From NCBI GenBank assembly GCA_015490465.1, contig WFXS01000056.1:1-42576 (forward strand): a stretch of 42,576 nucleotides of DNA, written 5' to 3'. The first letter of the stretch is position 1, and the number at the start of each line of letters is the position of its first letter. Below are positions 75-16,600 of this stretch, piece after piece. The notes below the pieces were generated by a model. The model made no database searches, was not told where the DNA came from, and saw only the letters and a program-made list of their open reading frames with translations. This stretch comes from Caldifarciminota bacterium (lineage in GTDB: Bacteria; Hydrothermota; Hydrothermia; LBFQ01). The translations under genes were made by a program, and so were the position numbers.

Positions 75-905
75 AAGGTTAAATTTTAAGATTGAATTGA
101 TATACATGGATATACATGCAAGTGATCAAAATTAACTGTGCGTATAGCGAAGAAGGAGACCACTAACGGCAGCACGTTTCACCTCCTACCTCACGAGATA
201 TATCGGGCTTAGCTCTATCTCGTATTCGTAGGTTCCAAAGGTGTCAGCAAGGGGTATAATAGCCCATCTCATGGGAACAAAGCCACTTTTCTTACCGTCC
301 TTCCCCCATGCCCAGCAGGCCGGGGAGCCTCCCTCGTTCCATATCCACCCAGGGGGATTATAAACATCAAACACCTCTTTTAAGGTATCAAGGTCTATCC
401 GTATTTCTATCCACGATGTGTCAAGAATTTGGTTTCGCACTATGAAGCCTCTGCAGTAGCGCCTATAGACTACCAATCCCCATATGTTGTATCTTCCCTT
501 CCCCCTGATATAAAAGACGAGATACCTACCCCAGTCAAGAAGGTCAAGGGGATAGCCTCTGAGATCAGATGCCATACCGGGCATAAGAAGTTCCGTTCTC
601 CAGCTCTTATCTTTGTACTCCCACACCCCCTTTAGATGCAGGGCCTTGTAGTCATCTACGATCCTGTACTCGCCGTCGGGTACGGGTATGCTATCACTCA
701 AGGGTAAAGTATCAAAGTTGGCTATCTCCCAGCCTCCGTACTCGTATTTCACTGCACCTACGGCCTTAAGTATGCTGTCCATCTGTTTGCTCTCGTCAAG
801 ATCGGCGAAGAGATAAACAAAAAGCAACATAAGGTCATATTTAAAGGGTGAACCGATATGCGTGCAGGTGGTCATACTGGCCGTGTAGCGAAGCAGATAA
901 CCGAT
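75..905. repeat. long dispersed repeat, copy 1 (leader + hypothetical gene + RBS/signal-peptide remnant)
   Basis: Shares GCGAAGAAGGAGAC..CTAACGGCAGCACGTTTCACCTCCTACCTCACGAGATATATCGGGCTTAGCTCTATCTCGTATTCGTAGGT and most of the gene with 15745..16515. Confidence 0.85.
186..875 (-). CDS. hypothetical protein, repeat-family copy 1 (paralog of 15801..16445)
   Basis: Near-identical to the 214-aa ORF at 15801..16445. The true start may be the internal ATG at the MLLFVYLFADLDES position, matching copy 2. Confidence 0.8.
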   Translation of the reverse strand: MTTCTHIGSPFKYDLMLLFVYLFADLDESKQMDSILKAVGAVKYEYGGWEIANFDTLPLSDSIPVPDGEYRIVDDYKALHLKGVWEYKDKSWRTELLMPGMASDLRGYPLDLLDWGRYLVFYIRGKGRYNIWGLVVYRRYCRGFIVRNQILDTSWIEIRIDLDTLKEVFDVYNPPGWIWNEGGSPACWAWGKDGKKSGFVPMRWAIIPLADTFGTYEYEIELSPIYLVR

Positions 906-1055
906 GTGTGAAAGGTTGTGAGGCCTAAATCGCTTCCGGAGAAACTTTAAGATCCCAAAGTGAAGATCACCTTATCAGCATAATACAGACCTCAGCCACG
1001 TCCGTTTTAATATCGTAGCCATATCGGACACAAAACGGGAGTAGAATATCCATCC

Positions 1056-1550
1056 ATGACGGAAGTCCTGATGTGGTTTTTTGCTTTACTGGCCATAATA
1101 GGGGCCTTCACGGTGGTACTCAACCCCAACCCCTTCTACGGGGCTATGGGACTGCTTTTGAACTTCTTATCCATAGCGGGTATGTACATGCTCCTGCAGT
1201 CCCCCGTACTCTCCCTCCTTCAGGTTATAGTGTACGCCGGTGGTATAATCGTCTTCTTCCTGTTCGTTATCCTCCTCCTTCACCTGCGCAGGCCCCTCGC
1301 CGACCGCGACTCCTCCCTCAAAGGGGTTATCGCCGTGGCCTTGGCCGTCGTATTCGCCGTAGTTGGGGTCTCGGCCCTCTTCATATATCCGATGAACGGC
1401 TTCTACATGGCGTACGTTACGGCAAAGGATATAGGCCAGTACATGCTCACCGACGGCCTGTTCGCCTTTGAGCTGTCCTCCTTCCTGCTTCTGGTGGGCG
1501 TGGTCACCGCAATAGCCATCGTAAAACTTTACAGGGAGGAAGAGAAATGA
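1056..1550 (+). CDS. nuoJ: NADH-quinone oxidoreductase subunit J
   Basis: NuoJ-like membrane protein (NPFYGAMGLLLNFLSIAGMYMLLQSPVLSLLQVIVYAGGIIVFFLFVILLL); followed by nuoK. Confidence 0.92.
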   Translation: MTEVLMWFFALLAIIGAFTVVLNPNPFYGAMGLLLNFLSIAGMYMLLQSPVLSLLQVIVYAGGIIVFFLFVILLLHLRRPLADRDSSLKGVIAVALAVVFAVVGVSALFIYPMNGFYMAYVTAKDIGQYMLTDGLFAFELSSFLLLVGVVTAIAIVKLYREEEK

Positions 1551-1852
1551 CACCGGTATTCGTAATCTCTCTGGCTCTCATAATGTTTGCCATAGGGCTG
1601 TTTGGAGTCCTTTTCAGGAAGAACTTCATCGTAATCCTCATGAGCCTTGAGCTCATGCTAAACTCCTCCAACCTCGCCATAGTTGGGGCATCCCAGATGT
1701 TCGGGGAGCAGGGGGTTCAGGGACACTTCCTGGTCCTCATGATCCTGATCATAGCCGCCGTTGAGGTAGCGATTGGGCTGGCCATAGCCGTACACATGGC
1801 CCGGACGGCCGACACCGTTGAAGTGGACTCCCTTTCGGAGCTGCCCAAATAA
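1547..1852 (+). CDS. nuoK: NADH-quinone oxidoreductase subunit K
   Basis: 101 aa; LLFRKNFIVILMSLELMLNSSNLA...VEVAIGLAIAVHM is typical NuoK. Overlaps the nuoJ stop. Confidence 0.94.
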   Translation: MTPVFVISLALIMFAIGLFGVLFRKNFIVILMSLELMLNSSNLAIVGASQMFGEQGVQGHFLVLMILIIAAVEVAIGLAIAVHMARTADTVEVDSLSELPK

Positions 1853-3175
1853 TTGAGGAGACTCCCCCCAGCAGCGGCCCTGTTTCTGGGTTACTTTATA
1901 GTATCGGCAATTGGAGGGGTTCTGCTCTATCTCCCCCCTATGCATACGGGTGGAGTCTCCCTTCTTGATGCCCTGTTTACGGCCACGTCCGCCGTGTGTG
2001 TTACGGGGCTGATAGTGGTTGATACGGCCACGGCGTGGACCTTCTGGGGAAAGCTGGTCATCGCCCTACTGATACAGATCGGTGGCCTCGGTTACATGAC
2101 CCTCGGGGCGATACTCTTCGCAGCGATCGGCTCCAAAGGTTCCCTCCACGCCCGGAGGATGTTAGCGATGAGCCTTGGGTCCTCCACCCTCTCCGGTATT
2201 CTGGGCGTAGCGCGGAAGGTCGTTCTCGTGGCCGTTCTTATAGAGGTGGTCGCCCTCGTCCCCCTCTGGATGGTCTTTGGCCTGAGATACGGCCCCGTTG
2301 TGGGTTTCGGCCACGCGCTGTTTCACAGTATAAGCGCTCTGAACAACGCCGGCTTCTCAACCTTCTCAAACAGTCTGATGGACTACGCCGGGAATCCCGT
2401 TGTAAACGTGGTTATCGTTTCCCTTATAGTGATAGGGGGGATAGGTTTCAAGGTCTGGATGGACGTATATAACCGCGCTATCGGAAGCGTAAGCCGATTT
2501 GACCTGCACGACCGCATCGTGTTTATGGCCACCGCCGTTCTGATCCTTGGAGGTTTTGTTCTCTTCCTTATACTGGAGCCTTCCACACAGGGGAAGGTAT
2601 GGGAAGCCCTGTTTGCGGCCGTTACGCCGAGAACTGCGGGTTTTAACACCGTGGATTACGCCTCCCTATCCCCCTTCGGAAAACTACTGACCACAACCCT
2701 CATGTTCGTAGGTGGCAGTCCCGGAGGTACGGCCGGAGGGATCAAAACAGTTACGACCTTCATAATACTGATATGGTTGATCAACACCCTTCAGGGTAGA
2801 AGAGACGTTTTCGTGTTCCGCAGGACTATACCGCAGGACACGGTAATAAAGGCGTTCCAGACCTTCATCCTCGCCATAGCCGTTCTGTGGGTGTGGGTAC
2901 TTCTCCTATCCCTGACGGAGAGGGATGTTGTACACAGGGTAGGTTTTTTGAACTTCCTCTTTGAGGTAGTCTCAGCCTTCGGAACCGTGGGCCTGTCCAC
3001 GGGCAGCCTGACGAAGGCCAACGTAAGTCTGGTCGCAGACTTCTCCGTCGCCGGTAGAATACTGACGATGCTGGCCATGATCATAGGGAGGGCCGGATAC
3101 ATCGTCTTCGCCGCCTCTCTCATAAGGATGGCGCCCCTTCCGTACAGGTACGCCGAGGAGGAGGTTCTGGTCTGA
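1853..3175 (+). CDS. TrkH/KtrB-family potassium uptake transmembrane protein
   Basis: Repeated P-loop-like segments (TSAVCVTGL, ALNNAGFS, TPRTAGFN, GTVGLSTG). TTG start immediately after the nuoK stop. Confidence 0.9.
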   Translation: MRRLPPAAALFLGYFIVSAIGGVLLYLPPMHTGGVSLLDALFTATSAVCVTGLIVVDTATAWTFWGKLVIALLIQIGGLGYMTLGAILFAAIGSKGSLHARRMLAMSLGSSTLSGILGVARKVVLVAVLIEVVALVPLWMVFGLRYGPVVGFGHALFHSISALNNAGFSTFSNSLMDYAGNPVVNVVIVSLIVIGGIGFKVWMDVYNRAIGSVSRFDLHDRIVFMATAVLILGGFVLFLILEPSTQGKVWEALFAAVTPRTAGFNTVDYASLSPFGKLLTTTLMFVGGSPGGTAGGIKTVTTFIILIWLINTLQGRRDVFVFRRTIPQDTVIKAFQTFILAIAVLWVWVLLLSLTERDVVHRVGFLNFLFEVVSAFGTVGLSTGSLTKANVSLVADFSVAGRILTMLAMIIGRAGYIVFAASLIRMAPLPYRYAEEEVLV

Positions 3176-3864
3176 TGCAGGTAACGGTAATAGGTCTCGG
3201 AAGGTTCGGCAGCTCCCTCGCCGAGACCCTCATAGAGAGAGGACACGAGGTGGTCGTTATAGATAAGGACGAGAGGCTCGTCCAGAAGTTCGTTGGCAAA
3301 ACGGACACCGCCATAGTGGCGGACGCAACGGACGACACCGTCCTCCGCAGCCTGGGGGTTCAGGATATGGACGCCGTGGTGGTGGCCATAGGGGACGACG
3401 TGGAGGCCAGCGTCCTGGTGTGTATTAGCCTGATGGATCTCGGGGCGAAGAACATAATCGCCAAGGCCGAGGACGAAAAACACGCCCGGATCCTCAACCG
3501 GATAGGTGTCCAGAGGGTGGTGCAGCCGGAGAGGGACTCCGCCCTTCACGTTGCGGATCTCATATCTTACCCTACCCTTGCCGACAGGTTCAACATAAGC
3601 GAGGAACACGCCATAGTTGAAGTCAGAGCGCCTAAGAGCTTCGTGGGTAAGAGGATAAGGGAGCTGGACCTGAGACGGAGGTACAACGTTCTGGTGATAG
3701 GTATCCGTAGGAAGGAGGCCGTGTTTGACCAGAAGGGGGAGATAGTTGACCTGAAGGAGAGGTTCTTCGCGCCTCCGGATCCCGACGAGGAGATAACCGA
3801 CGGGGACGTACTGGTTCTCCTTGCCCCGGTTGACGTTATAGACGACATAGCCCGATGGGAATGA
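3175..3864 (+). CDS. TrkA/KtrA-family potassium channel regulatory subunit (RCK_N + RCK_C)
   Basis: MQVTVIGLGRFGSSLAETLIERGHEVVVID Rossmann motif, IVADATD; overlaps the trkH-like stop. Confidence 0.93.
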   Translation: MQVTVIGLGRFGSSLAETLIERGHEVVVIDKDERLVQKFVGKTDTAIVADATDDTVLRSLGVQDMDAVVVAIGDDVEASVLVCISLMDLGAKNIIAKAEDEKHARILNRIGVQRVVQPERDSALHVADLISYPTLADRFNISEEHAIVEVRAPKSFVGKRIRELDLRRRYNVLVIGIRRKEAVFDQKGEIVDLKERFFAPPDPDEEITDGDVLVLLAPVDVIDDIARWE

Positions 3865-4565
3865 TCCACGTCGTTACCCTTCTGCTGTCCCTCGCGGTTT
3901 CCATGCTTATGTCGTCGTTTGAGATGGCCTACGTCAGGAAGGCTCCCTTCTTTAACTCCGGTAAACTGGACAGCCTACTCCACGACCGCACGGGTGTACT
4001 GGCGACCGTCCTCTTCTGGAACACGGTGGCCCTCGTCTTCGGATCCATATCCCTGTACAACCTACTCCACAACTTTCCCGGTGCCATAGTCTGGTCCGGT
4101 ATTATCGCGGCCGTACTTTTCGCAGTAGTCGGAGACTTCATACCCAAACTGGCCGCCATAACTCACCTTGATCTCGTCTTCAAACTGGAACTCTATCCTT
4201 TCGTTTTCTTCTATTACCTATCCAGGGTCCTCCTCATAACCTTCGTCGCAGAGAGGATACTGCAGTCCAGATACAGCCGGGAGGAGGTTGTGGACATGAT
4301 AATGGCCTACCTGAGGGGCAGGGTGAGCGATGAGGATCTTAGGTTTGCCGGCAAAGCCATATCCTCCCTCTACGAGCCGGCATCAAAGTACGTACGTAAG
4401 GGGAAAGGGGAGTGTACGTGCGAATCCCCCTCTCCCACCGTCCTTGACGTCCTCAGGGTGATGCGGGAGAAAAGATGCACGGCCGTGAACGTAGGCGACG
4501 GCGTCTTTGAACTCCACGAGTACCTTAAATCCCTGGTCAGGGAGACCGTCTCCTCCTTAGAATAG
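3855..4565 (+). CDS. membrane protein, divergent DUF21/CNNM-like
   Basis: SSFEMAYVRK...LFWNTVALVFGS...VVGDFIPKLAAI resembles the DUF21 pattern (EaAl..., GN..., GEi.PK); weak CBS-like C-terminus. Confidence 0.5.
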   Translation: MGMIHVVTLLLSLAVSMLMSSFEMAYVRKAPFFNSGKLDSLLHDRTGVLATVLFWNTVALVFGSISLYNLLHNFPGAIVWSGIIAAVLFAVVGDFIPKLAAITHLDLVFKLELYPFVFFYYLSRVLLITFVAERILQSRYSREEVVDMIMAYLRGRVSDEDLRFAGKAISSLYEPASKYVRKGKGECTCESPSPTVLDVLRVMREKRCTAVNVGDGVFELHEYLKSLVRETVSSLE

Positions 4566-4570
4566 GGATC

Positions 4571-5878
4571 GTGTACGTCTGTTCCGTGTGCGGGTACAGG
4601 AGCGTGAAGTACCTCGGAAGGTGTCCCAACTGCGGTGAGTGGGGGACCCTGAAGGCCGATGTCGGGGGAAAGGAAAGGGGGAAAAAGAAGGGAAAAGGTG
4701 TACCGGTGGTAAAACTTTCCGACATAGGAAAGGGAAGGTTCGTGAGGGTTCCGACGGGGATACCGGATCTGGATCGGGTCCTCGGGGGAGGTCTGGTATC
4801 CGGGAGCGTGGTACTTCTGGCCGGAAATCCCGGCGTAGGGAAGTCAACGTTGTTCCTTCAGGTGGCGGGGAACCTCGCCGAAAAGGGTAAGAGGGTCCTC
4901 CTCATATCGGCTGAGGAGTCTTCTGTTCAGGTCAAACATAGGGCCCAGAGACTCGGCACTTCCGACTCCGTTATGGTGGCCGAGGGGGAGAACCTGGATG
5001 CTCTGCTCTCCTCCGTACCGGAGGACGTGGACCTCGTGATGTTAGATTCAATACAGGCCGTTTACACCGAAGATCTGAACTCTCCCGCCGGGTCCGTTTC
5101 ACAGGTACGTTTCTGTGCCGACAGGCTGTTTCGCTTCGCGAAGGAGAGGAACGTAACCGTCCTGATGTCGGGACACGTCACCAAGACGGGGAACGTGGCC
5201 GGGCCGAAGGCCCTTGAACATATAGTGGACGTCGTACTCTACCTTGAGGGGGAGAAGGGTTCACCCCTCAGACTCCTGAGGGCGCATAAGAACCGGTTTG
5301 GCCCCACGGACGAGGTCGCCTTCTTTCAGATGACCGAAAGGGGTCTTGTCCCTATAGGGGACCCTTCCCTATTCTTCGCGTCGCCCGGTAAGGCTTCCCG
5401 TGTCGGGGTATCCTACGGTGTGATAACTCGCGGGAGTGTGAGGCTCGTCGTGGAGATCCAGTCCCTTGTCCATTACTCCTACTACCCCGTTCCCGTCCGC
5501 TACAGCATCGGCTACGACCATAAGAGGCTGGCCATAGTACTCGCCCTCATGGAGAAGAGGCTGGACGTCAAACTCGGCAAGAGGGACGTCTACCTCAACG
5601 TGAGCGGTGGCATCCGCATAGACGAACCTTACGCCGACATGGCCGTGGCAATTTCTCTCCTCTCCTCCGTCCGGAACTTTCCCGTGGATAACGCCGGTGT
5701 ATTCGTGGGAGAGGTATCCCTATCCGGGGAGTTCAGGGCGCCTCCGGACCTTCCTCTCAGGGTCGCCGAGGCGAGGAGACTTGGCTTCAGGAGGGTGTAT
5801 GCCCCTACGGAGGAGAAGTTTGACGGTATGGAGACCGTAACCGTACGGGATATGACCGACCTGTCGGACGTACTATGA
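4571..5878 (+). CDS. radA: DNA repair protein RadA
   Basis: CxxC..CPNC zinc finger, GNPGVGKST Walker A, KNRFG motif, Lon-like C-terminal domain; GTG start. Confidence 0.96.
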   Translation: MYVCSVCGYRSVKYLGRCPNCGEWGTLKADVGGKERGKKKGKGVPVVKLSDIGKGRFVRVPTGIPDLDRVLGGGLVSGSVVLLAGNPGVGKSTLFLQVAGNLAEKGKRVLLISAEESSVQVKHRAQRLGTSDSVMVAEGENLDALLSSVPEDVDLVMLDSIQAVYTEDLNSPAGSVSQVRFCADRLFRFAKERNVTVLMSGHVTKTGNVAGPKALEHIVDVVLYLEGEKGSPLRLLRAHKNRFGPTDEVAFFQMTERGLVPIGDPSLFFASPGKASRVGVSYGVITRGSVRLVVEIQSLVHYSYYPVPVRYSIGYDHKRLAIVLALMEKRLDVKLGKRDVYLNVSGGIRIDEPYADMAVAISLLSSVRNFPVDNAGVFVGEVSLSGEFRAPPDLPLRVAEARRLGFRRVYAPTEEKFDGMETVTVRDMTDLSDVL

Positions 5879-6715
5879 CACCGGCATCAACCTCTCCGGT
5901 TTTAAAATACCTCCGTTTACCCTTCCGACACCCACGAACCTGCCGTCAACGTACACCCTGTAGTGTCCCTCATCAAGGTCAACCCTTATCCTTCCGCCGT
6001 TCAAAAAGAGTCTGGCATCTCTCCCCTCAAGGTTAACCTTTCCCATCCAGTACAGGGCGTCCTTCACCCGTATCAGGTCGTCCCGTCCTATCTCCTCCGG
6101 GTGTCGGGCATCCTTCACGTGGAAGTTCCCTATGGAGAGCCTCCGCAGGAAGGTTAAGTACCCCACAGTTCCAAGTTCGTGGGCTATGTCCCGGCCCAAC
6201 GCCCTGACGTACGTACCGCTTCCCACCCTGCACCTGAAACGGATCCTGTCCCCCTCAACCGAAAGGACGTTAACACTCTCAACGTAAACCTTGCGGGGTT
6301 TTAACTCTATCTCCTCCCCCCGGCGGGCGAGGTCGTACGCCCGCTTCCCCTTCAGTTTGAGGGCCGAGAACTTCGGAGGAACCTGTTCAATATTACCGAT
6401 AAACTTCCTTACGACCCCTTCCACCTTTTCAACGGTTAACTCCGGGACGGGGGAGGTTTTTATTACTTCTCCCTCCGGGTCAAGGGTATCCGTCTCCTCA
6501 CCGAGTTTGAGGACGGCTTCGTACTCCTTCAGGAGGGGGCGGAAGAACTGGAAGAAGCGGGTCGCCCTGCCCACACCAACGAGAAGCAGACCGCTGGCGA
6601 AGGGGTCAAGGGTTCCCTCGTACCCCCCTCTCACCTTCAGGCGCCTCTGGATGACGTTCATGGCCTTCCGGGAGGTCCACCCCTCCGGCTTATCCACAAG
6701 AAAAAAACCCTCCAT
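5873..6715 (-). CDS. truB: tRNA pseudouridine(55) synthase TruB
   Basis: GFFLVDKPEGWTSRKAMN..., GTLDPFASGLLLVGVGRATR, PPKFSALKLKGKRAYDLAR, VGSGTYVRALGRDI. Confidence 0.96.
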   Translation of the reverse strand: MEGFFLVDKPEGWTSRKAMNVIQRRLKVRGGYEGTLDPFASGLLLVGVGRATRFFQFFRPLLKEYEAVLKLGEETDTLDPEGEVIKTSPVPELTVEKVEGVVRKFIGNIEQVPPKFSALKLKGKRAYDLARRGEEIELKPRKVYVESVNVLSVEGDRIRFRCRVGSGTYVRALGRDIAHELGTVGYLTFLRRLSIGNFHVKDARHPEEIGRDDLIRVKDALYWMGKVNLEGRDARLFLNGGRIRVDLDEGHYRVYVDGRFVGVGRVNGGILKPERLMPVS

Positions 6716-6732
6716 GGAGTGAAAATGATAAA

Positions 6733-6750
6733 GGGGGGCGTTCGCCCCCC
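6733..6750 (-). terminator. G/C hairpin followed by a U-rich tract, probable rho-independent terminator for the 6757..8250 gene
   Basis: GGGGGGCGTTCGCCCCCC inverted repeat; TTTATCATTTT follows on the minus strand. Confidence 0.7.
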
Positions 6751-6756
6751 TGCGGT

Positions 6757-8250
6757 TTACCTCTTTACGAACCTCACGCTCTTGCTGGCAAAGCGGACGA
6801 TGTAGACGCCCTCCGGAAGGTGGGAGAGGTCAACCCTCCTGCTTCCCTTTACGTAAGTCCTGAGTACGGCTCTACCCGTAGGGTCGTAAACTTTCAGGAC
6901 GTCTCCCACCTCGGAGGATACCAGTACGGCATCCCTCTCTATGCGGAGAGAAGAACCCGTGTTCCTGACCTCGGATACGTCCGTAGGATCGTCGTAAGCG
7001 AGGGGACACGTACCCCATACGACTATATGGCAGGAGTAGTCTCCTACGGCGAAGGCGAGGGATCCGGACAGTTTGAGGACTATAACCTCCGACGTTATGG
7101 AGTAGGGGGTGGTTCCGTACGTGCCGAGGAGGGTGAGGCTCAAACCGTCAACCAGACCCACGTTGTAGTCGCCAACGGGGGCGAGGACGTCGGGGAACCT
7201 GTCCCCGGTCAGGTCAACGAGCGTGGGCGGATAACCGGTCCCTTCGTTACCGTTCACACCGAAACCGCTCGTATTTCCGAGCAGTGAACCGTCCGTACCC
7301 TTGTATATGTAAAGCTCCCCGTCGTGTATCACCCAGACGTCGTCCCAGCTGTCGCCATCGTAGTTGGCGAGGGCCACGGGGGAACCGTTAGAGTATCCGG
7401 CCACCGTCCACAGCTGCACCCATCCGAGGAAGGAGCCTCTATATTCGTAAACCGAAACGGACGTTGACGTGGGGACGACGACCTCGTCGCTACCGTCCCC
7501 GTCCACGTCTCCGAGGGCCACGGTGTAATCCGGCCATATGTCTATGGACGAGGGTACTCCGGCGGAGAAGGAGCTGTGAAGGGTACCCGTACCGGCGTCC
7601 AGTACGTATATCTGCCCGTTGCTCAGGGGGTATACCACCTCCATATAACCGTCCCCGTCCACGTCTCCGAGGGCTGGAGCGTAGGCGTTTGCCGGGAGGG
7701 TGTACGTCCAGTGGGTGGTGTAGGTGGTAGCACATCCGTCAACCGAAACGGCCTGGTTTCCGAAAGAGGTATAAACCTCGGGGCATCCGTCCAGGTCCAC
7801 GTCTGCTATGGCGGGGGATGGATCACGGCCGTCGGGTTTATCGTACTGGTACACTGTAGCACCGTTGGTTATATCTATTACCTTGAAGTAGTAGTATCCG
7901 TTGGCGAAAACGAAGGCGTCCGACGCCGCCACGGAGGCTATGCCGGGAGAGGTGAAGTAATCCCCCCTGTTCTCCCATAGCGTATCTCTCGTTATTACGT
8001 CAAGCGCCATCACACCGTAAGCTGAAGACGATTGCTGAGCGCCGATGATATCAACGGCGTCGTCCCCGTTAGCGTACATGCCGATTATGCTCTCGTCTAT
8101 GGTGCCGTGAACGACGTCCCACATCCTGGTTATGGAGGCGCACTGGGCTGGCCACCTGTAAAAGCCCGTACGCCTGTAATCGTGCCTATACTGAGGCCAA
8201 GCCGTGCCTTCCGGCCCGTACAGACTCTGTGATAGTAGAATCCCTATCAT
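6757..8250 (-). CDS. secreted FG-GAP/VCBS-repeat beta-propeller protein with T9SS type A-like C-terminal sorting domain
   Basis: Repeated DVDGDGxxEVV/DVDLDGCPEV motifs; C-terminus VYDPTGRAVLRTYVKG..LPEGVYIVRFASKSVRFVKR. Confidence 0.85.
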   Translation of the reverse strand: MIGILLSQSLYGPEGTAWPQYRHDYRRTGFYRWPAQCASITRMWDVVHGTIDESIIGMYANGDDAVDIIGAQQSSSAYGVMALDVITRDTLWENRGDYFTSPGIASVAASDAFVFANGYYYFKVIDITNGATVYQYDKPDGRDPSPAIADVDLDGCPEVYTSFGNQAVSVDGCATTYTTHWTYTLPANAYAPALGDVDGDGYMEVVYPLSNGQIYVLDAGTGTLHSSFSAGVPSSIDIWPDYTVALGDVDGDGSDEVVVPTSTSVSVYEYRGSFLGWVQLWTVAGYSNGSPVALANYDGDSWDDVWVIHDGELYIYKGTDGSLLGNTSGFGVNGNEGTGYPPTLVDLTGDRFPDVLAPVGDYNVGLVDGLSLTLLGTYGTTPYSITSEVIVLKLSGSLAFAVGDYSCHIVVWGTCPLAYDDPTDVSEVRNTGSSLRIERDAVLVSSEVGDVLKVYDPTGRAVLRTYVKGSRRVDLSHLPEGVYIVRFASKSVRFVKR

Positions 8251-8281
8251 AGTACGAATTATACGCCTGAAATATGTCAGC

Positions 8282-9844
8282 CTACAAGGAGAGGTTCCCC
8301 ACGCGATCGCGGTGCATTCTCGCCCTACTTATCTGGGCGCATCCGAGGTACAGGTAATCCATGTCCCACTCCCTGTGGGCGTCCGTACCGATGAAGACCT
8401 TCCCCCGGTACTCTCCGGCGAGCAGGAGATTTCCGGAGAGATCTACGCGCCGGGGGTTGGCATTAACCTCAAGGGCCTTGCCCAGTTCCTCTGCTCTGCG
8501 GAACACCCTGTAGAGGTCTACTCTGTAGGCCGGACGTTTCTTTAACACTCTCCCCGTAGGGTGTCCTATGACGTGGACGTAAGGGTTCTCAAGGGCCTTA
8601 AGTATCCTCTCCGTCAGGTCCTCTCCATCTTTCCACGCGTGTACAGAGGCTATGACGAAGTCAAAACGGCTCAGTACCTCGTCCGGGTAGTCCAGAGAAC
8701 CGTCCGGGAGTATGTCCACCTCCGTACCGAACAGTATCCTGATGTAGGGGTACTTCTCCCGGAGCCGCAGGATATCGGAATACTTCTTCTCCAGACGGTA
8801 CTCGTTCAGGCCACCCCCCGATGAGGGTGAGTGATCCGTAAGAGCCACTAAGTTGTATCCTCTGCGTACGGCGGCCCGTACGGCCTCTTCAGGTCTCATA
8901 CTCCCGTCGGAGTACGTCGTGTGGACGTGGGTATCCCCGGGTACGTCTTCGGGAAGTACGGGATCGGGGAGTTCGCCCCTCAGGGCCATCTTTACCTCCT
9001 CCCCGTCCCACCTCTGGAAAGGGTGTATGAACGGGAGGCCGAGCCGTCCGTAAACCTCCTCCTCGGTGGCACCTTCAACGCCCCCCATCTCCTCAAGGGT
9101 ACGGATATGCCCTTCCGGACCCGTAGCGTAGACCAGAACGCTTCCCATGTCTTCGGGGGTGTATATGTGGATCCGGACGGGTATGCGATCCCCTCCCCAT
9201 AGCCAGTGGCCGCGGTCGTACCTCCCTGAGAGGGCAAGGCGGAAAGCGTCCTTTTCGGATATGGCAAAGTCCAGCATTTCCAGAAGTGGTTCCCCTCTCC
9301 TGTACCCCCCAACTGCCACGGCTGAAGGGAAGAGCCTCCCAAAGGCCTTTACGATTATGCGGGCCTCCGGCGCTAAAAGATGGTTGCGGTACTTCAGGTA
9401 GAACAGGACGTTTTCGTAAACCTTTTCCGGGTTCTTAAAGAGTTTCTTTGCCTCCTCAGTGGTCAAAAATTTCAGGAGATCGTCAAACGTACGTATGCCC
9501 ATCTCAACCAGAGTTCTGGCCGTGGCCGGCCCTATCCCCCTGACCTTTACGAACTCCACGGCGTCCTTTCCGTACTCCCTCAGTATCTCCTCGTACTCCT
9601 CCACCCTGCCGTCCTCAAGGAACTCAACTATCCTGTAAACTATCGCTTTTCCGATCGGCAGGGCCTTCTGCAGACCCTTAACCCCTTCGTACTCGTATAT
9701 TCCGGCCACGTCCTCGGGGAATTCGGAGAGTATCCGGGCTGCCCGTCTGTAGGCATCGCAGCGGAAACGGGAATCACCCTTTAAAAGGCATCCACCGTGC
9801 AGTACATCAAAGATCCTGTACAGCCTGTAGTTGGCTTCCGACAC
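8282..9844 (-). CDS. polX: PolX-family protein (DNA polymerase X N-terminal region + PHP domain), polymerase active site apparently degenerate
   Basis: HhH motif VRGIGPATARTLVEMG; PHP motifs DTHVHTTYSDG, LTDHS, EVDILPDGSLDYPDEVL, GHPTGRVL, NANPRRVDLS, GTDAH. Confidence 0.9.
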   Translation of the reverse strand: MSEANYRLYRIFDVLHGGCLLKGDSRFRCDAYRRAARILSEFPEDVAGIYEYEGVKGLQKALPIGKAIVYRIVEFLEDGRVEEYEEILREYGKDAVEFVKVRGIGPATARTLVEMGIRTFDDLLKFLTTEEAKKLFKNPEKVYENVLFYLKYRNHLLAPEARIIVKAFGRLFPSAVAVGGYRRGEPLLEMLDFAISEKDAFRLALSGRYDRGHWLWGGDRIPVRIHIYTPEDMGSVLVYATGPEGHIRTLEEMGGVEGATEEEVYGRLGLPFIHPFQRWDGEEVKMALRGELPDPVLPEDVPGDTHVHTTYSDGSMRPEEAVRAAVRRGYNLVALTDHSPSSGGGLNEYRLEKKYSDILRLREKYPYIRILFGTEVDILPDGSLDYPDEVLSRFDFVIASVHAWKDGEDLTERILKALENPYVHVIGHPTGRVLKKRPAYRVDLYRVFRRAEELGKALEVNANPRRVDLSGNLLLAGEYRGKVFIGTDAHREWDMDYLYLGCAQISRARMHRDRVGNLSL

Positions 9845-9847
9845 TCC

Positions 9848-10207
9848 TTATCCTTCTCCCTTGACGGCCTTTAGAGCCTCGTAGACGTCGTTGAATGTCC
9901 TGAATACTTTGTCAAAGGCCATTACCTTATAGACCTTAAGGACCTGCCCCTTCGGTCCGCAGATCAGTATGTCGCCTCCCCGTTCCCGTGCGTGTTTGAG
10001 TACCGTTATGAGGGCGCCCCATATCGCCGAGGAAACGTACTCCGCCTCCGATAGGTCAACGATGAATATGTCAACGCCGTCGGCGAGTTTATCGTCAAAG
10101 AACACGATCAGGGGTTCGCGCATGGCCGTGTCAATCTCCCCTATGAGTCTGACGATCCCGATTCTACCGTCCCGACGGAACTTCAAAACGTCTCCGATAT
10201 TTCTCAT
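9848..10207 (-). CDS. STAS-domain protein (anti-sigma factor antagonist-like)
   Basis: GEIDTAMREPL...DIFIVDLSEAEYVSSAIWGALITVLKHARERGGDILICGPKGQVLKVYKVMAFDKVF. Confidence 0.85.
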   Translation of the reverse strand: MRNIGDVLKFRRDGRIGIVRLIGEIDTAMREPLIVFFDDKLADGVDIFIVDLSEAEYVSSAIWGALITVLKHARERGGDILICGPKGQVLKVYKVMAFDKVFRTFNDVYEALKAVKGEG

Positions 10208-10230
10208 GCTTGTATTTTATACCCGCATCT

Positions 10231-11295
10231 TTAGTCGTACGTTAGAGCCTCCTCCTCCCCGTTAAGTACCCTCAGAACACCCTCGGCCAGAGCCTTCATC
10301 TCGTCCTCCCCGGGGTAAACGTACACGGGGGCGATGAAGGATAACCGGCGTTTTAGATTGTCCACCACGTAATCCTCGTGGGCCATACCTCCGGTTATTA
10401 TCACGGCGTCCACCTTACCCTCAAGTACGGCCGCCATACCCCCCGCCTCTTTTCCCACCTGATAGAGCATGGCGTCCACCACCTCCTTCGCTCCGGGGTC
10501 CCCGGCCTTCACCCTCTCCATAACCTTCCTGAAGTCCTTCTCTCCAAGGTAGGCGTACATTCCCCCCTCACCGAATATCATCCTTTTCACCTGATCAAAC
10601 GTGTACTTTCCGGAGAAGCACAGCCTTGCAAGGCTCATAACGGGGAGGGTCCCGGTGCGTTCAACGGAGAAGGGGCCCTCTTCCATGGAGTTCGTGAGGT
10701 CCACCATCCTCCCATCCCTGTGGGCCGACACCGTGATACCGCTTCCGAGGTGGATAACGATGAGGTTGCTTTTACCGTAGTCCTTTCCGTTCTCCTTCGC
10801 CCACCTCTTTGCTACGGCTTTGGTATTCAGGGCGTGGGATAGGCTGTACCGGGGGAGGTCCGGGTGGCCGGAGTACCGGGCGAGGTCGTCCATCTCGTCC
10901 ACGCTAACGGGGTCTACGGTGTAGGCCTTTATTCCCCACTCCTTTGCGAGGTTGTACCCGATTATTCCGGACAGGTTGGAGGCGTGGAAACCCCTCTTGC
11001 TCTCGTAGAGGTCAAATACCATCTTCTCGTTCACCTCGTACGTGCCGCTCCGGAGGGGCTTGAGGAGACCCCCTATAACGGCTATGGCGTCTATTCCTTC
11101 CCCCGTCACGTTCCTTTTCTTGAGGATCTCCCTTATTACTCTCTCACGGAATCGGAGATGCTCCTTAATATCCGGAAGGTTTTTGATGGTTTCGTAATCG
11201 TGTCTGACCGTCTCCTTCCATACCTCCTTATCATTCTCGTAGAGGGCGACTTTGGTTGAGGACGAACCGGTGTTTACGATCAGGACTCTGGCCAT
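10231..11295 (-). CDS. buk: butyrate kinase family protein
   Basis: VLIVNTGSSSTKVALY, GFHASNLSG, HALNTKAVAKRWA, IVIHLGSGITVSAHRDGRMVD, IITGGMAH. Confidence 0.92.
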   Translation of the reverse strand: MARVLIVNTGSSSTKVALYENDKEVWKETVRHDYETIKNLPDIKEHLRFRERVIREILKKRNVTGEGIDAIAVIGGLLKPLRSGTYEVNEKMVFDLYESKRGFHASNLSGIIGYNLAKEWGIKAYTVDPVSVDEMDDLARYSGHPDLPRYSLSHALNTKAVAKRWAKENGKDYGKSNLIVIHLGSGITVSAHRDGRMVDLTNSMEEGPFSVERTGTLPVMSLARLCFSGKYTFDQVKRMIFGEGGMYAYLGEKDFRKVMERVKAGDPGAKEVVDAMLYQVGKEAGGMAAVLEGKVDAVIITGGMAHEDYVVDNLKRRLSFIAPVYVYPGEDEMKALAEGVLRVLNGEEEALTYD

Positions 11296-11342
11296 CGCTG
11301 GATTTTACGGACGGTCGGGGAATCCTCTATATACTTGTCGCC

Positions 11343-12656
11343 GTGAAGGTTGTGGTTGAGAACGTACCACCCGGCTACAGGATGACGGAGCTGGGGCCTT
11401 TGCCGGAGGAGTGGGAGGTGGTGAGGTTGGAGGAGGTTTTTTCGGTTGTTCCAAAGAAAAAACGTGAACGCATAGTGGAGGATAATACCGCTTATCGTCT
11501 ACTCACTGTCAGGCTGTACGCTAAAGGGGTCATACTCCGTGAGGTAAAAGAGGGCAAGGACATAGGCACCAAAAAACTCTACGAGGTTAAGGAGGGAGAT
11601 TTCGTTTTTTCCAAGATAGACGCCCGTAATGGGGCGTGGGGATTTGTGAGCAAGGATCTGTCGGGTGCGTTAGTTAGCGGAGATTTCCCTATTCTTTCGT
11701 TAAATCGTGAAATTGCGGATGAGGATTTTATAACGTTCTCCCTATCCCGTCCTTCTATCTGGAAAGTATTGAGGAACATAGCGGTGGGTACAACGAACCG
11801 GCGTAGAGTTCAACCCAAAGAATTCCTGAAGGTTTTATCCATACCCCTCCCCCCACTCCCGGAGCAGAAGGCCATCGCCTACGTCTTAAGGGCTGTGCAG
11901 GAGGCAAGGGAGAAGACGGAAGAGGTTATAAAGGCTCTCAAGGAACTCAAGAAGTCTTTGATGAAGCACCTATTCACCTACGGCCCCGTGCCTCTCGGTG
12001 AGGTTGATAAAGTTAGCCTGAAGGAAACGGAGGTAGGGGATATACCGGAGCATTGGGAGGTGGTGAGGTTGGGGGAGGTGGGAAAAGTCGTTACAGGGAA
12101 AACACCCTCAACCGGAGAACCAAAATATTGGAACGGTACTGTCCCTTTTATCACACCTGTTGACCTTCAGGGAGGAGAAATTTACACGACAGCTCGCACC
12201 ATCACACAAGAAGGTCTTACACAGACTAAAACCGTACCTCAGGGAGCCGTTCTGGTCAGCTGTATAGGGTACATCGGTAAGGTGGGTATCGTGGGGACAA
12301 GGGTGGCAGCCACTAATCAACAAATAAACGCAGTTATCCCTTACACCAGTGTACTGAACAACGTATTCCTGCTTTATGTCCTTCAAAAGGAAGAAGTGCA
12401 GAAAATTATGGATCAGATGACCCGAAAGACTACGGTTCCCATTTTGAATAAATCCAACTTTTCAAAAACGCCCATCCCCCTTCCCCCTCTCCACGAACAG
12501 GAACAGATCGCCCACATACTCCGTTCGGTGGATGACAAAATAGAGACAGAGAGGAAGAGGGCAGAGGCGTTAGATACGCTCTTTAAAACCCTCCTTCACG
12601 ACCTCTTAACGGCTCGTAGGCGTCTGCCGAAGGACTTCGTTAAGAAGTTTGAGTAA
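11343..12656 (+). CDS. hsdS: type I restriction-modification specificity subunit S (two TRDs)
   Basis: Two half-repeats: MTELGPLPEEWEVVRLEEV...IPLPPLPEQKAIA and EVGDIPEHWEVVRLGEV...IPLPPLHEQEQIA. The ORF-track start at 11256 overlaps buk; the GTG at 11343 is more plausible. Confidence 0.9.
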   Translation: MKVVVENVPPGYRMTELGPLPEEWEVVRLEEVFSVVPKKKRERIVEDNTAYRLLTVRLYAKGVILREVKEGKDIGTKKLYEVKEGDFVFSKIDARNGAWGFVSKDLSGALVSGDFPILSLNREIADEDFITFSLSRPSIWKVLRNIAVGTTNRRRVQPKEFLKVLSIPLPPLPEQKAIAYVLRAVQEAREKTEEVIKALKELKKSLMKHLFTYGPVPLGEVDKVSLKETEVGDIPEHWEVVRLGEVGKVVTGKTPSTGEPKYWNGTVPFITPVDLQGGEIYTTARTITQEGLTQTKTVPQGAVLVSCIGYIGKVGIVGTRVAATNQQINAVIPYTSVLNNVFLLYVLQKEEVQKIMDQMTRKTTVPILNKSNFSKTPIPLPPLHEQEQIAHILRSVDDKIETERKRAEALDTLFKTLLHDLLTARRRLPKDFVKKFE

Positions 12657-12692
12657 TACCGAACTTCCTTTACACCGGTAGAATCTCCCCCT

Positions 12693-14138
12693 ATGAAGCT
12701 GTACGAGTGCGTCCCCAACTTCTCCGAGGGCAGGAACGAGGAGGTAATAAACGCCCTTAAGGAGGCCATAGAGTCCGTTCCGGACGTGAAACTTCTGGAT
12801 ATGGAGAAGGATCCGGATCACAACCGGAGCGTCTTCACCTTCGTAGGTACGGCCGAGGGCGTTCTGGACGCCGCCTTTAAGGCCATAAAGGTGGCGGTTG
12901 AGAAGATAGACATGAACAGGCACGAGGGGGCCCACCCAAGGATAGGGGCTGCAGACGTCGTCCCCTTCGTCCCGCTCTTTGATGCCACCATGGAGGAGGC
13001 GGTTGACCTCGCCCACAAGCTGGCGAAGAGGGTGGCGGAGGAGTTGAATCTGCCCGTGTACCTCTACGGTGAGGCCGCTCAGAAGCCTGACAGGTACGAC
13101 CTCGCCAACATCCGCAAGGGTCAGTACGAGGGTCTCGCCGAGAAGATGAAGGATCCTAACTGGAAGCCCGATTACGGCCCGGATACCCCACACCCCACGG
13201 CCGGAGCCACCGTAATAGGGGCGCGGAAGATACTGGTGGCCTACAACGTGAACCTCAACAGCCGCAACCTCAAGGCAGCCAAGAGAATAGCCCGCCACGT
13301 GAGGGCAAAGACGGGGGGCCTCGCCTTCGTAAAGGCGTTGGGCTTTGACCTGCCCACGAAGGACATGGTGCAGGTATCCATGAACTTAGTTGACTACGAG
13401 AAGACTCCTATACACGCGGCTTACGAGTACGTTAAACTCTGGGCGGAGCGTTACTCTCAGCCGGTTTACGAGAGCGAAATCGTTGGCCTCGTTCCACTGA
13501 AAGCCCTGGTTGACGTGGCGAAGTTCTATCTGAAGCTTAACGACTTCAAGCCCGACCAGATAATAGAGAGCCGGATATACGACGGCTGGACGCTGGATCT
13601 GTACCTCTCGGACCTCGCTTCTTCCGAAGCCGTCCCCGGTGGTGGAGCGGTGTCGGCCCTATCCCTCGCTCAGGCTGCCGCTCTCCTGTCCATGGTGGCG
13701 GGAATAGGGTTGAAACGGAAGAAGTACAGGGAGAACTGGCCGAAGTTTCAGGAGATACGTGACAGAGCCAAAGCCATACTCAAGAGAGCCAGAGATCTGG
13801 TTAACGAGGACGTTAAGGCCTTTGAAGAGGTGATGGCCGCCTACAAACTGCCGAAGGACGACCCGGAGAGGAAGGGGAAGATCCAGAAGGCTCTGGTCAG
13901 GGCTGCCGAAGTACCCCTTGAGGTAGTGAAGTTGTCGGCCGAGGTTAAAGGGCTGGCGGACGAGCTTGAGCCGATAGCGCCCAAGTCGGCCATAAGCGAC
14001 GTGTACGTATCCAGATATCAGGCGGAGGCGGCCCTTAAGGGAGCAGCAGAGAACGTTAAGATAAACCTCGCCTCCCTTGAGGAGGGGGAGACCAGGCGGA
14101 GGATAGAGGAGGAGCTGAGCAGGTACACCAAAGAGTAA
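12693..14138 (+). CDS. ftcD: glutamate formimidoyltransferase fused to a formimidoyltetrahydrofolate cyclodeaminase domain
   Basis: ECVPNFSEGRN, DxDHNRSV, HEGAHPRIGAADVVPFVP, ARKILVAYNVNL; C-terminal FTCD-like LASSEAVPGGGAVSALSLAQAAALLSMVAG. Confidence 0.93.
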   Translation: MKLYECVPNFSEGRNEEVINALKEAIESVPDVKLLDMEKDPDHNRSVFTFVGTAEGVLDAAFKAIKVAVEKIDMNRHEGAHPRIGAADVVPFVPLFDATMEEAVDLAHKLAKRVAEELNLPVYLYGEAAQKPDRYDLANIRKGQYEGLAEKMKDPNWKPDYGPDTPHPTAGATVIGARKILVAYNVNLNSRNLKAAKRIARHVRAKTGGLAFVKALGFDLPTKDMVQVSMNLVDYEKTPIHAAYEYVKLWAERYSQPVYESEIVGLVPLKALVDVAKFYLKLNDFKPDQIIESRIYDGWTLDLYLSDLASSEAVPGGGAVSALSLAQAAALLSMVAGIGLKRKKYRENWPKFQEIRDRAKAILKRARDLVNEDVKAFEEVMAAYKLPKDDPERKGKIQKALVRAAEVPLEVVKLSAEVKGLADELEPIAPKSAISDVYVSRYQAEAALKGAAENVKINLASLEEGETRRRIEEELSRYTKE

Positions 14139-14295
14139 GGGACGTAGGGATAGACTAAGGCTTAATTTCAGGAGGTGCCGTTGTGTTTTAAAGTAGGTGG
14201 GGCGGAGTACTTAGTAAAGGTAAACGTAAGGAAAACAACTTGCACATCCCCACATTCCGATGACTACAACACCATTTCCATTGGGAATATATAGA

Positions 14296-15790
14296 TTACC
14301 TTACCACCACCTTAAACACCTTACCCCCGACCTTCACGAAATACACACCGGCGGGCAAGGAAACCCTGCCCTTGCCCCTGAAAACGAGCCTGCCGCTCAC
14401 GGAATAGACTTCGCCGTACTCCGGAACCTCCAACCCACCCTTCACAACCCTGATGGCAACCTTTTCACCTCCCTTAACTACCTCCTCAACCCCAATTATC
14501 TCACTGATAACACCCCTGAAGAACCAAGCGTTACCCCCACCGGAAAAGGAAGAAGCGTCCAGAGACCTATCACCACCGACGTAGTAATATACCGTATCCC
14601 TGTACGTTATCAAACTCGCATAGTGATTGCCGTTCCATCCGTTGCACGATGACCATACGTCAGGATGATGGCCGAAAGCAGAGGCTATCCTCCTGTTCCT
14701 CCACACACCTCCCTCCATCCATCCGTACATCACCATACTCGTGTCCCACCTCCCCGGTGCCTTCAACGAAAAACAGAAGAAGCGTATCTCCAGAGGAGGA
14801 TAAAACGGGATTTCCCTGAATGCTGTCACTTCTGTAAACTGCACTATCTATCCACGTTGTTCCTCCGTCAAAGCTGTAGGAGACGTATACGTTGCACCTC
14901 CCTGTGTCGCTGCGGTCGTTCCCATAGACGTAGGCAACTGCAAGACCGTTCATACCAAAGGCCGATATGCTCTTGAGCCGCTTCGTGAAGCCATTAAACG
15001 GAACGTTGCATTGCTTATACAGAGGTCTCCTGTAGAACCGTGCTGCCACACCCGGCACCTCGTTCCACGTCGTGCCACTGTCCGTGGAGTAGAAGACGTG
15101 GATGTAAACGGAGTCAGTAGGTGGATATACTTTCTCCTCAACTGCAAGGTAGTACACGCCATCATGATAAGTGAGATACGGAATGTTGAAAATAGAATTA
15201 CGACGAGCAATAGATTTTCTAATCACCCAATCACCCGGCGCACCGTGGTTGTCGTTGGTAAGGATGAAGACTGTGTCCTCCTTCATCCACGCCCCTATCA
15301 CTCTACTACTACCCAGAACACCTATCACCCACGGTTTGTCCCTGTCCTTTGGGCTGTACTCGTGCATGTTGTAGCAGTACCAGCTGCCCGACAGGTGGGG
15401 ATCGGAGAACGCCATGCAGAATACTATCATGTTTGAATCCCTTCGTGACGTGTCCTTGAGGCTTACCATCCCTATCAGATAGAATCCGTTCGCATTATCT
15501 CCCATTATGCTGACAGAGGGGTCAACTATCGCATACCTGTTTGTGTCCATTACCCACCCGTCATCAAATGTGCCTATCAGGTCCTTTACGTGAAGCCAAT
15601 TTGTGCCTCTGGTGGTATCAACGAAGATGCTTATCGTCCAGAACTTATTAGGCCAGTTTCTGTTTAGTACTGCTGCCACTAAATAGCCGTCGTTAAGGGC
15701 GAGGTCCCCTTCAAGGTAACTCTGGTAGCAGTAGTTGGGTATGTCGCTGTTTATACGTGTAGCGAAGAAGGAGACTGCTAACGGCAGCAC
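14296..15790 (-). pseudogene. secreted protein with T9SS type A-like C-terminal domain, interrupted by an apparent frameshift (ORFs 14660..15790 and 14296..14844)
   Basis: Frame A (GTG start at 15790, GGAGG upstream) reads to FFVEGTG. Frame B, one nucleotide later, continues DTSMVMYGWMEGGVWRNRRIASAFGHHPDVW... and ends SLPAGVYFVKVGGKVFKVVVR. Confidence 0.7.
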
Positions 15791-16515
15791 GTTTCACCTC
15801 CTACCTCACGAGATATATCGGGCTTAGCTCTATCTCGTATTCGTAGGTCCCAAAGGTGTCAGCAAGGGGTATAATAGCCCATCTCATGGGAACAAAGCCA
15901 CTTTTCTTACCGTCCTTTCCCCATGCCCAGCAGGCCGGGGAACCTCCCTCGCTCCATATCCATCCAGGGGGGTTATAGACGTCAAATCCCTTCTTTAAAG
16001 AATCAAGATCTATCCGTATCTCTCTCCACGATGTGTCAAGCGTTAGATTCCTAATGATGAATCCTCTACAGTACTGTTGATATACGATCTCTCCTCCTAT
16101 TTCGTACTTTCCCTTTCCTCTGATATAGAAGACGAGATACCTCCCCCAGTCAAGGAGGTCAAGGGGATAGCCCCTGAGATCAGATGCCATACCGGGCATA
16201 AGAAGTTCCGTTCTCCAGCTCTTATCTTTGTACTCCCACACCCCCCTTAGATGCAGGGCCTTGTAGTCATCTACGATCCTGTACTCTCCATCGGGTGCGG
16301 GTATGCTATCACTCAAGGGTAAAGTATCAAAGTTGGCTATCTCCCAGCCTCCGTACTCGTACTTCACCGCACCTACGGCCTTAAGTATGCTATCCATCTG
16401 CCTGCTCTCGTCAAGATCAGCAAGAAGATAAACAAAAAACAACATAAGGTCATATTTTAATGGTGAACTGATATGCGTGTAAGTGCTTAAAATTAACCGT
16501 ACGTGTAGCGAAGAA
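15745..16515. repeat. long dispersed repeat, copy 2
   Basis: See copy 1 at 75..905; the shared sequence includes the gene, its leader and the downstream RBS/GTG signal-peptide start. Confidence 0.85.
15801..16445 (-). CDS. hypothetical protein, repeat-family copy 2
   Basis: 214 aa, near-identical to 186..875; no family recognised by eye. Confidence 0.8.
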   Translation of the reverse strand: MLFFVYLLADLDESRQMDSILKAVGAVKYEYGGWEIANFDTLPLSDSIPAPDGEYRIVDDYKALHLRGVWEYKDKSWRTELLMPGMASDLRGYPLDLLDWGRYLVFYIRGKGKYEIGGEIVYQQYCRGFIIRNLTLDTSWREIRIDLDSLKKGFDVYNPPGWIWSEGGSPACWAWGKDGKKSGFVPMRWAIIPLADTFGTYEYEIELSPIYLVR

Positions 16516-16600
16516 GGAGACTGTTAACGGCAGCACGTTTCACCTCCTACCTCACGAGATATATCGGGCATATCTCGTACCTGTAGGTCCTAAAGATGCG
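16485..16600. repeat. truncated third repeat copy (3' end of the hypothetical gene + RBS/signal-peptide start remnant)
   Basis: GTGTAGCGAAGAAGGAGACTGTTAACGGCAGCACGTTTCACCTCCTACCTCACGAGATATATCGGGC, then decayed similarity (ATATCTCGTACCTGTAGGTCCTAAAG). Confidence 0.8.

Follow-up and report, generated by a model that had tools for sequence, protein, structure and literature searches.

What kind of locus places the same small secreted-protein gene, with the same flanking sequences, in front of different downstream genes? The question is raised by contig WFXS01000056.1 (C56) of the Caldifarciminota bacterium assembly GCA_015490465.1, the forward strand of which, 42,576 nt in all, is referred to here as the window, and which carries repeated copies of a gene that we call gene A. 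An original prediction had seen in these repeats an ancestral tandem array that recombines at common sequences, possibly as a cassette system for swapping surface-protein genes. We consider it likely that gene A belongs to a lineage-restricted, multi-copy family of two-gene secreted-protein operons, which evolves by birth and death through ordinary homologous recombination and deletion. Copies of the gene are mosaic, whole units are present in one genome and absent from the corresponding place in a close relative, and the neighbours of the units shift. Tandem arrays, unit presence or absence between repeats, recombinant genes and swapped junctions all bear out the recombining array of the original prediction, but not a dedicated cassette system.

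The source is a hot-environment, presumably free-living bacterium of an almost uncultured phylum; one cultured member of WOR-3, strain sy37, now exists (PMC12285271). The genome of the source (G000, the host genome) is a WOR-3/Hydrothermota draft of 2.05 Mb in 126 contigs. The close relative G004 served as comparison genome, with G003 as a further genome, and the loci compared for position between genomes were sampled around A units.

On the minus strand, a unit runs from a promoter through gene A and GGAGGTGAAAC to the start of a cargo gene. The A start codon is a conserved ATG, 8 nt past TAAAAT/TTAAAT, and the product has 214 aa. Three two-gene types have this promoter and order in common (A with cargo C, B with cargo B, and D with cargo D), and they were seen in the tandem arrays A-B, B-A, D-A-A, and A-D. 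The window copies of gene A (Table 1) are 91% identical over a 300-nt core, an identity far above chance. They lie where the original prediction had placed them, except that copy 1 starts at 830 rather than 875, and the third, consisting of an A tip and a scar, lies directly upstream of copy 2. A 107-nt junction is present in three window copies. Behind copy 1 come a cargo-start scar and, at the contig end, the promoter of gene D with the first 74 nt of that gene; this D fragment matches the D gene of contig C54 over approximately 70 bp up to the contig end, and its aa 1-25 are 80% identical to intact D. Copy 2 is followed by cargo C. Different genes thus follow the leader, as predicted: those after a junction and promoter are of the A, B or D types, each with its own promoter, and the open reading frame (ORF) at position 74 is the start of D. 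By contrast, the proposal that conserved signal-peptide starts are joined to different cargo bodies finds no support, since what follows the start is either cargo C or a deletion scar and nothing else. What had been described as a signal-peptide start running into stops is the beginning of a cargo gene that was deleted, joined to the next promoter.

Table 1. Positions of gene A units, junctions and scars in the window (SD, Shine-Dalgarno sequence; CBM, carbohydrate-binding module; T9SS, type IX secretion system).
Feature	Position	Strand	Basis or match
Gene D 5' end, small secreted protein, cut by contig end	1..74	minus	matches C54 gene D
D leader/promoter, junction type, TTAAAATTTAACCTTATG	75..140	minus	pattern with 0 mismatches
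Junction copy 1: A 3' end, SD (GGAGGTGAAAC) and first ~45 nt of cargo C, then next promoter	141..217	minus	96% to query
Gene A copy 1 (A1), 214 aa, predicted secreted CBM-like beta-sandwich	186..830	minus	
A1 promoter region, TTTAAATATGACCTTATG	831..895	minus	1 mismatch; homologous to other leaders
Cargo C gene, BNR-like, T9SS-like C-terminal tail, frameshift-split	14296..15790	minus	
Junction copy 2: A2 3' end, SD and intact cargo C start	15752..15832	minus	
Gene A copy 2 (A2), 214 aa, recombinant	15801..16445	minus	
A2 promoter, junction type	16446..16516	minus	
Junction copy 3: SD and cargo-C start scar joined to A2 promoter	16500..16576	minus	same order in G004 C8
3' tip (~52 nt) of deleted gene A (copy 3)	16547..16598	minus	sequence, translation, DNA match

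An 81-bp junction query (window 15752-15832) found seven copies in the host genome, ten in the closest relative, and four, two and one in three others; neighbours differ between close relatives, so that they are not fixed. Full or near-full A genes occur at five loci of the host genome, including two in C56 and others on contigs C96, C42 and C118, and an IS630-type transposase gene interrupts the fifth copy (A5) close to the 5' end, with one side of the insertion at an end of C74 and the other at an end of C118. Two kinds of scar recur. The start of cargo C is joined to a promoter at the identical point in C56a, C56b, C42, C118, and C54, which suggests one deletion that was later copied to several loci, and a cargo start is joined to a cargo tail on C96, on C20, C45 and C49 of G004, on C34 and C105 of G003, and at L064.

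Presence or absence of a whole unit is seen on C42, where exactly one A unit lies between two direct repeats of approximately 110 bp, while the collinear G004 contig C1 (98% identical upstream, 90-100% past the cargo) carries just one such repeat, without an A gene. This site, C96/C20, C43/C15, and the right side of C56b/C8 are common to the host and G004. In contrast, the A units on G004 contigs C51, C55, C49, and C14 have two flanks that are apart in the host genome, either on separate contigs or at separate places, and at the nuoJ, C54/C75, and C26/C106 sites units or remnants occur in the host where G004 is contiguous, contig joins being inferred for these three sites. A decayed cargo tail is present at one of three 'empty' sites, which argues for deletion rather than insertion there, and the other two fit both alike. 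Synteny of the window to G004 is broken at three places, namely A1, the cargo at approximately 14.1-15.0 kb, and an hsdS-like gene at 11.3-12.6 kb. The last (window 11256-12656) resembles HsdS, the specificity gene of type I restriction systems; hsdM and hsdR were not found among the neighbouring genes scanned.

Recombination is also recorded within gene A. Among A genes, the N module has two alleles and the C module several; joined at a conserved core, YPLDLLDWGRYLVFYIRGKG, they occur in all four main combinations, the N1 and N2 modules each being found with C1-type and C2-type modules. Approximately unbiased (AU) tests reject a history common to both halves: the N1 clade is rejected by the C half (log-likelihood difference 228, p-AU 0.0007), and the C2 clade by the N half (202, p-AU 0.002). 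Identical runs of polymorphic sites were longer than with permuted sites in 31 of 55 pairs (p<=0.002), and the mean ratio of run to expectation was 2.55, against at most 1.13 in recombination-free simulations (n=60). A2 exemplifies the pattern: its first 180 nt are 95% identical to the syntenic copy on G004 C8, followed by mostly 62-85% to the 3' end, while most of A2 past those 180 nt shows 90-100% identity with A3, a paralog in the same genome.

Divergence between otherwise syntenic loci rises chiefly within the units. At syntenic loci of the host and G004, flanks are mostly 90-100% identical, and blocks in A, B and cargo drop to 58-87%. From position 14982, the window compared with G004 C8 gives, per 100 bp, 87, 87, 71, 66, 97, 97, 99, 96, 92, 73, 65, 84, 79, and 98% identity (continuing); C96 and G004 C20 show dips to 58-68% in B only; and between C42 and G004 C1 the 5' half of the cargo is 62-87% identical, that half being 98-100% identical to G004 C52. 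As for the A and cargo cassette of C42, its match in G004 lies at another site, with 98.6% identity.

These patterns would be explained as follows. A full unit would consist of a leaderless-type promoter, a secreted protein of approximately 200 aa (A, B or D), and a BNR-like cargo with a T9SS-like tail, and units stand alone or as short tandem arrays, scattered over several parts of each genome. Crossovers would fall in near-identical stretches, namely the promoter, the conserved A core, and the stretch from the end of A into the cargo start, which should be long enough for ordinary homologous recombination. Such recombination would swap A halves, replace cargo segments, and add or remove whole A units, and deletions would join the beginning of a cargo gene either to the promoter that comes next or to a cargo tail, leaving the repeated scars. 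Ordinary homologous recombination among copies, whether tandem or dispersed, would thereby account for unit gain and loss, for mosaic A genes and, by extension, for the changes of flanks. Its agent would presumably be RecA-type recombination, and some of the exchange presumably took place between copies of one genome. The proteins themselves may well bind glycans at the surface, with variation that is under selection.

Several points weigh against this explanation. Both the host and G004 genomes are fragmented drafts, so that some array joins are inferred, and several array ends are contig ends. Profile comparison detected no homology of A with B or D; their grouping therefore rests on the common promoter and order, and we do not claim the three as paralogs by sequence. 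The cargo tail scores 16.0 bits against TIGR04183, below the cut-off of 23, with the match at the expected place (aa 462-495 of 499). The groups for the AU tests were picked after the alignment was seen, and the permutation test ignores spatial rate differences, of which the tree tests are independent. The longest common blocks did not differ significantly in length between pairs from one genome and pairs from two (p 0.26), and exchange within one genome is consequently inseparable from exchange among strains or species.

A dedicated cassette or antigenic-variation system, in which silent copies donate to an expressed copy via a specific recombinase or fixed crossover sites, appears improbable. 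Constant islands do flank variable modules, copies are many, and truncated donors without starts exist, but a promoter and start of its own belongs to almost every copy, nothing points to a single expression locus, and breakpoints are varied and scattered. Since most copies carry their own promoter, this is not an expression site fed by silent cassettes; and since a Pfam scan of the 17 window genes around the arrays (neighbours of other loci lie outside it) returned no integrase, invertase or transposase, and no mobile-element ends were found, a dedicated machine is rejected at present. Transposition of the unit, which would give dispersed copies, is a very doubtful alternative. We saw neither common terminal repeats nor target duplications, the ends differ by locus, and transposition was set aside on finding that one of the three apparently empty sites keeps a decayed cargo-tail remnant and so points to deletion there. 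Copies do lie at different places in close relatives, and an IS630-type transposase is found inside A5 and beside an A4-cargo unit in a relative, yet that element interrupts a single copy (A5) and is outside the unit proper. The gene in question occupies 13202-14212 of C74 and the start of C118, and a 94% identical copy adjoins an A4-type cassette on G004 C52.

We give hardly any credence to old duplication followed by decay with little recombination, according to which the similarity reflects common ancestry only. Decayed copies, frameshifts and scars are indeed common, but the tree conflict between halves, the identity runs and the locally divergent syntenic loci contradict it, unless the A copies are assembly chimeras. 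That short-read assembly mixed the repeats is itself most unlikely: the C56b locus is internal to its contig, its order of A tip, junction, A, junction and cargo recurs in a separate assembly (G004 C8) that is syntenic on to the window end, and the order B, remnant, A is identical in C96 and G004 C20. This stands against copies at contig ends (C96, C118, C74, and the left end of the window) and an overlap of 523 bp at 98% identity between the end of C47 and the start of C85, which may be a duplicated flank or strain variants. Lastly, a bolder reading is a combinatorial surface-lectin system in a candidate phylum, in which interchangeable N and C modules of secreted CBM-like proteins are shuffled under selection (for glycans, phages or kin) and the promoter-plus-cargo-start junction is the preferred crossover platform. 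We regard this as possible though rather unlikely.

With respect to the A protein, no Pfam or NCBIfam family was matched. It is predicted to be secreted, and its AlphaFold2 model is a beta-sandwich/jelly-roll (predicted local distance difference test score, pLDDT, 82). The closest PDB folds are CBM families 11, 30 and 4 and a CIA30-like domain (6r31, 2c24, 2y6j, 7zkq; best Foldseek E 7e-6, probability 1.0), which are like A in predicted fold; A differs from them in low TM-scores (only about 0.35-0.43), 10-16% identity, and the lack of a Pfam match. A is therefore predicted to resemble a CBM beta-sandwich, with carbohydrate binding putative. Gene A was found in six of the seven other genomes of the host's GTDB family, with 2-10 matches each (about ten in the best-assembled relative), the seventh genome being 57% complete. 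In a profile search of 147 phylum genomes, the rest of the phylum was without A except for one marginal match (E 7e-4).

The leader of these genes has the consensus TTAAAAT(A/T)T(A/G)ACC(T/C)TATG or near it. Its exact pattern matches seven times in the genome, always preceding A, B or D genes, and the promoter motif precedes A1-A5, B1, B2, and both D copies. TANAAT stands 4-12 nt ahead of the start in 14 of the 28 long window genes checked, compared with 2.7% of all ATGs (p 3e-15); examples are the genes at 1056(+), 8250(-), 11295(-), 12693(+), 30372(-), 36288(+), and 41081(+). The lineage thus appears to use leaderless transcripts widely, and because TANAAT is common ahead of window genes the A/B/D leader looks like a family-specific form of the organism's usual leaderless-type promoter. 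In the literature searched, we found no paper that treats WOR-3 together with either type IX secretion or leaderless transcripts.

Matches of the cargo proteins to BNR and Reelin-subrepeat models are weak, and the cargo structure prediction was too poor for use (pLDDT 37). The start after A2, originally thought to open a 1.5-kb T9SS-cargo gene, does lead into cargo C, but the gene is frameshifted into two ORFs (14660-15790 and 14296-14844) at approximately aa 342-351 of an intact 499-aa paralog on C42; true decay and base error cannot be told apart here. The T9SS-like tail occurs 72 times in the host genome, and the model for SprA, the T9SS outer-membrane pore, scores above its cut-off on C85 and in none of 14 control genomes. 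Directly upstream of sprA lies an A gene in G004 (C51) and a promoter-like remnant in the host genome (C85:700-7000). Cargo 3' ends with the tail and without a matching body lie at C79:28516-28605, C75:4654-4728, C34:13444-13542, and C73:6827-6958 of the host genome; the isolated end on C75 has approximately 70 bp past the stop in common with cargo B of C118.

Recombinational shuffling of surface and secreted proteins is best known in pathogens under immune pressure. The closest published parallel that we found is the T9SS surface proteins of Porphyromonas gingivalis, likewise multi-allelic secreted or surface proteins with T9SS-type tails (T9SS-like in the A family cargo), mosaic alleles that depart from the strain tree, and domain swapping by homologous recombination, in which gingipain and adhesin domains are rearranged and alleles are exchanged (PMC5266723). 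The protein family and host lineage differ, P. gingivalis being a host-associated, naturally competent pathogen, whereas the A family combines a small CBM-like protein with a cargo in many dispersed two-gene units in Hydrothermota. Rhs elements offer a looser parallel in their displaced gene ends beside intact genes, recombination via conserved sequence, and lineage-specific turnover, but only one tip varies beside their retained core, and their sequences in E. coli cluster by genomic position, while in the A family both halves vary, loci shift, and promoters are common to the copies (PMC2935791). The cassettes of Borrelia, Neisseria pilin and Mycoplasma haemagglutinin similarly have constant regions flanking variable segments in multi-copy surface genes, but pair one expressed gene with silent donors, whereas A family copies have their own promoters (PMC2935791).

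For this lineage, the A family offers a reason for assembly breaks at these genes and marks gene-order differences between close relatives. Shuffling in a presumably free-living lineage suggests, moreover, that other pressures, such as glycan supply, phage or neighbours, can maintain it.

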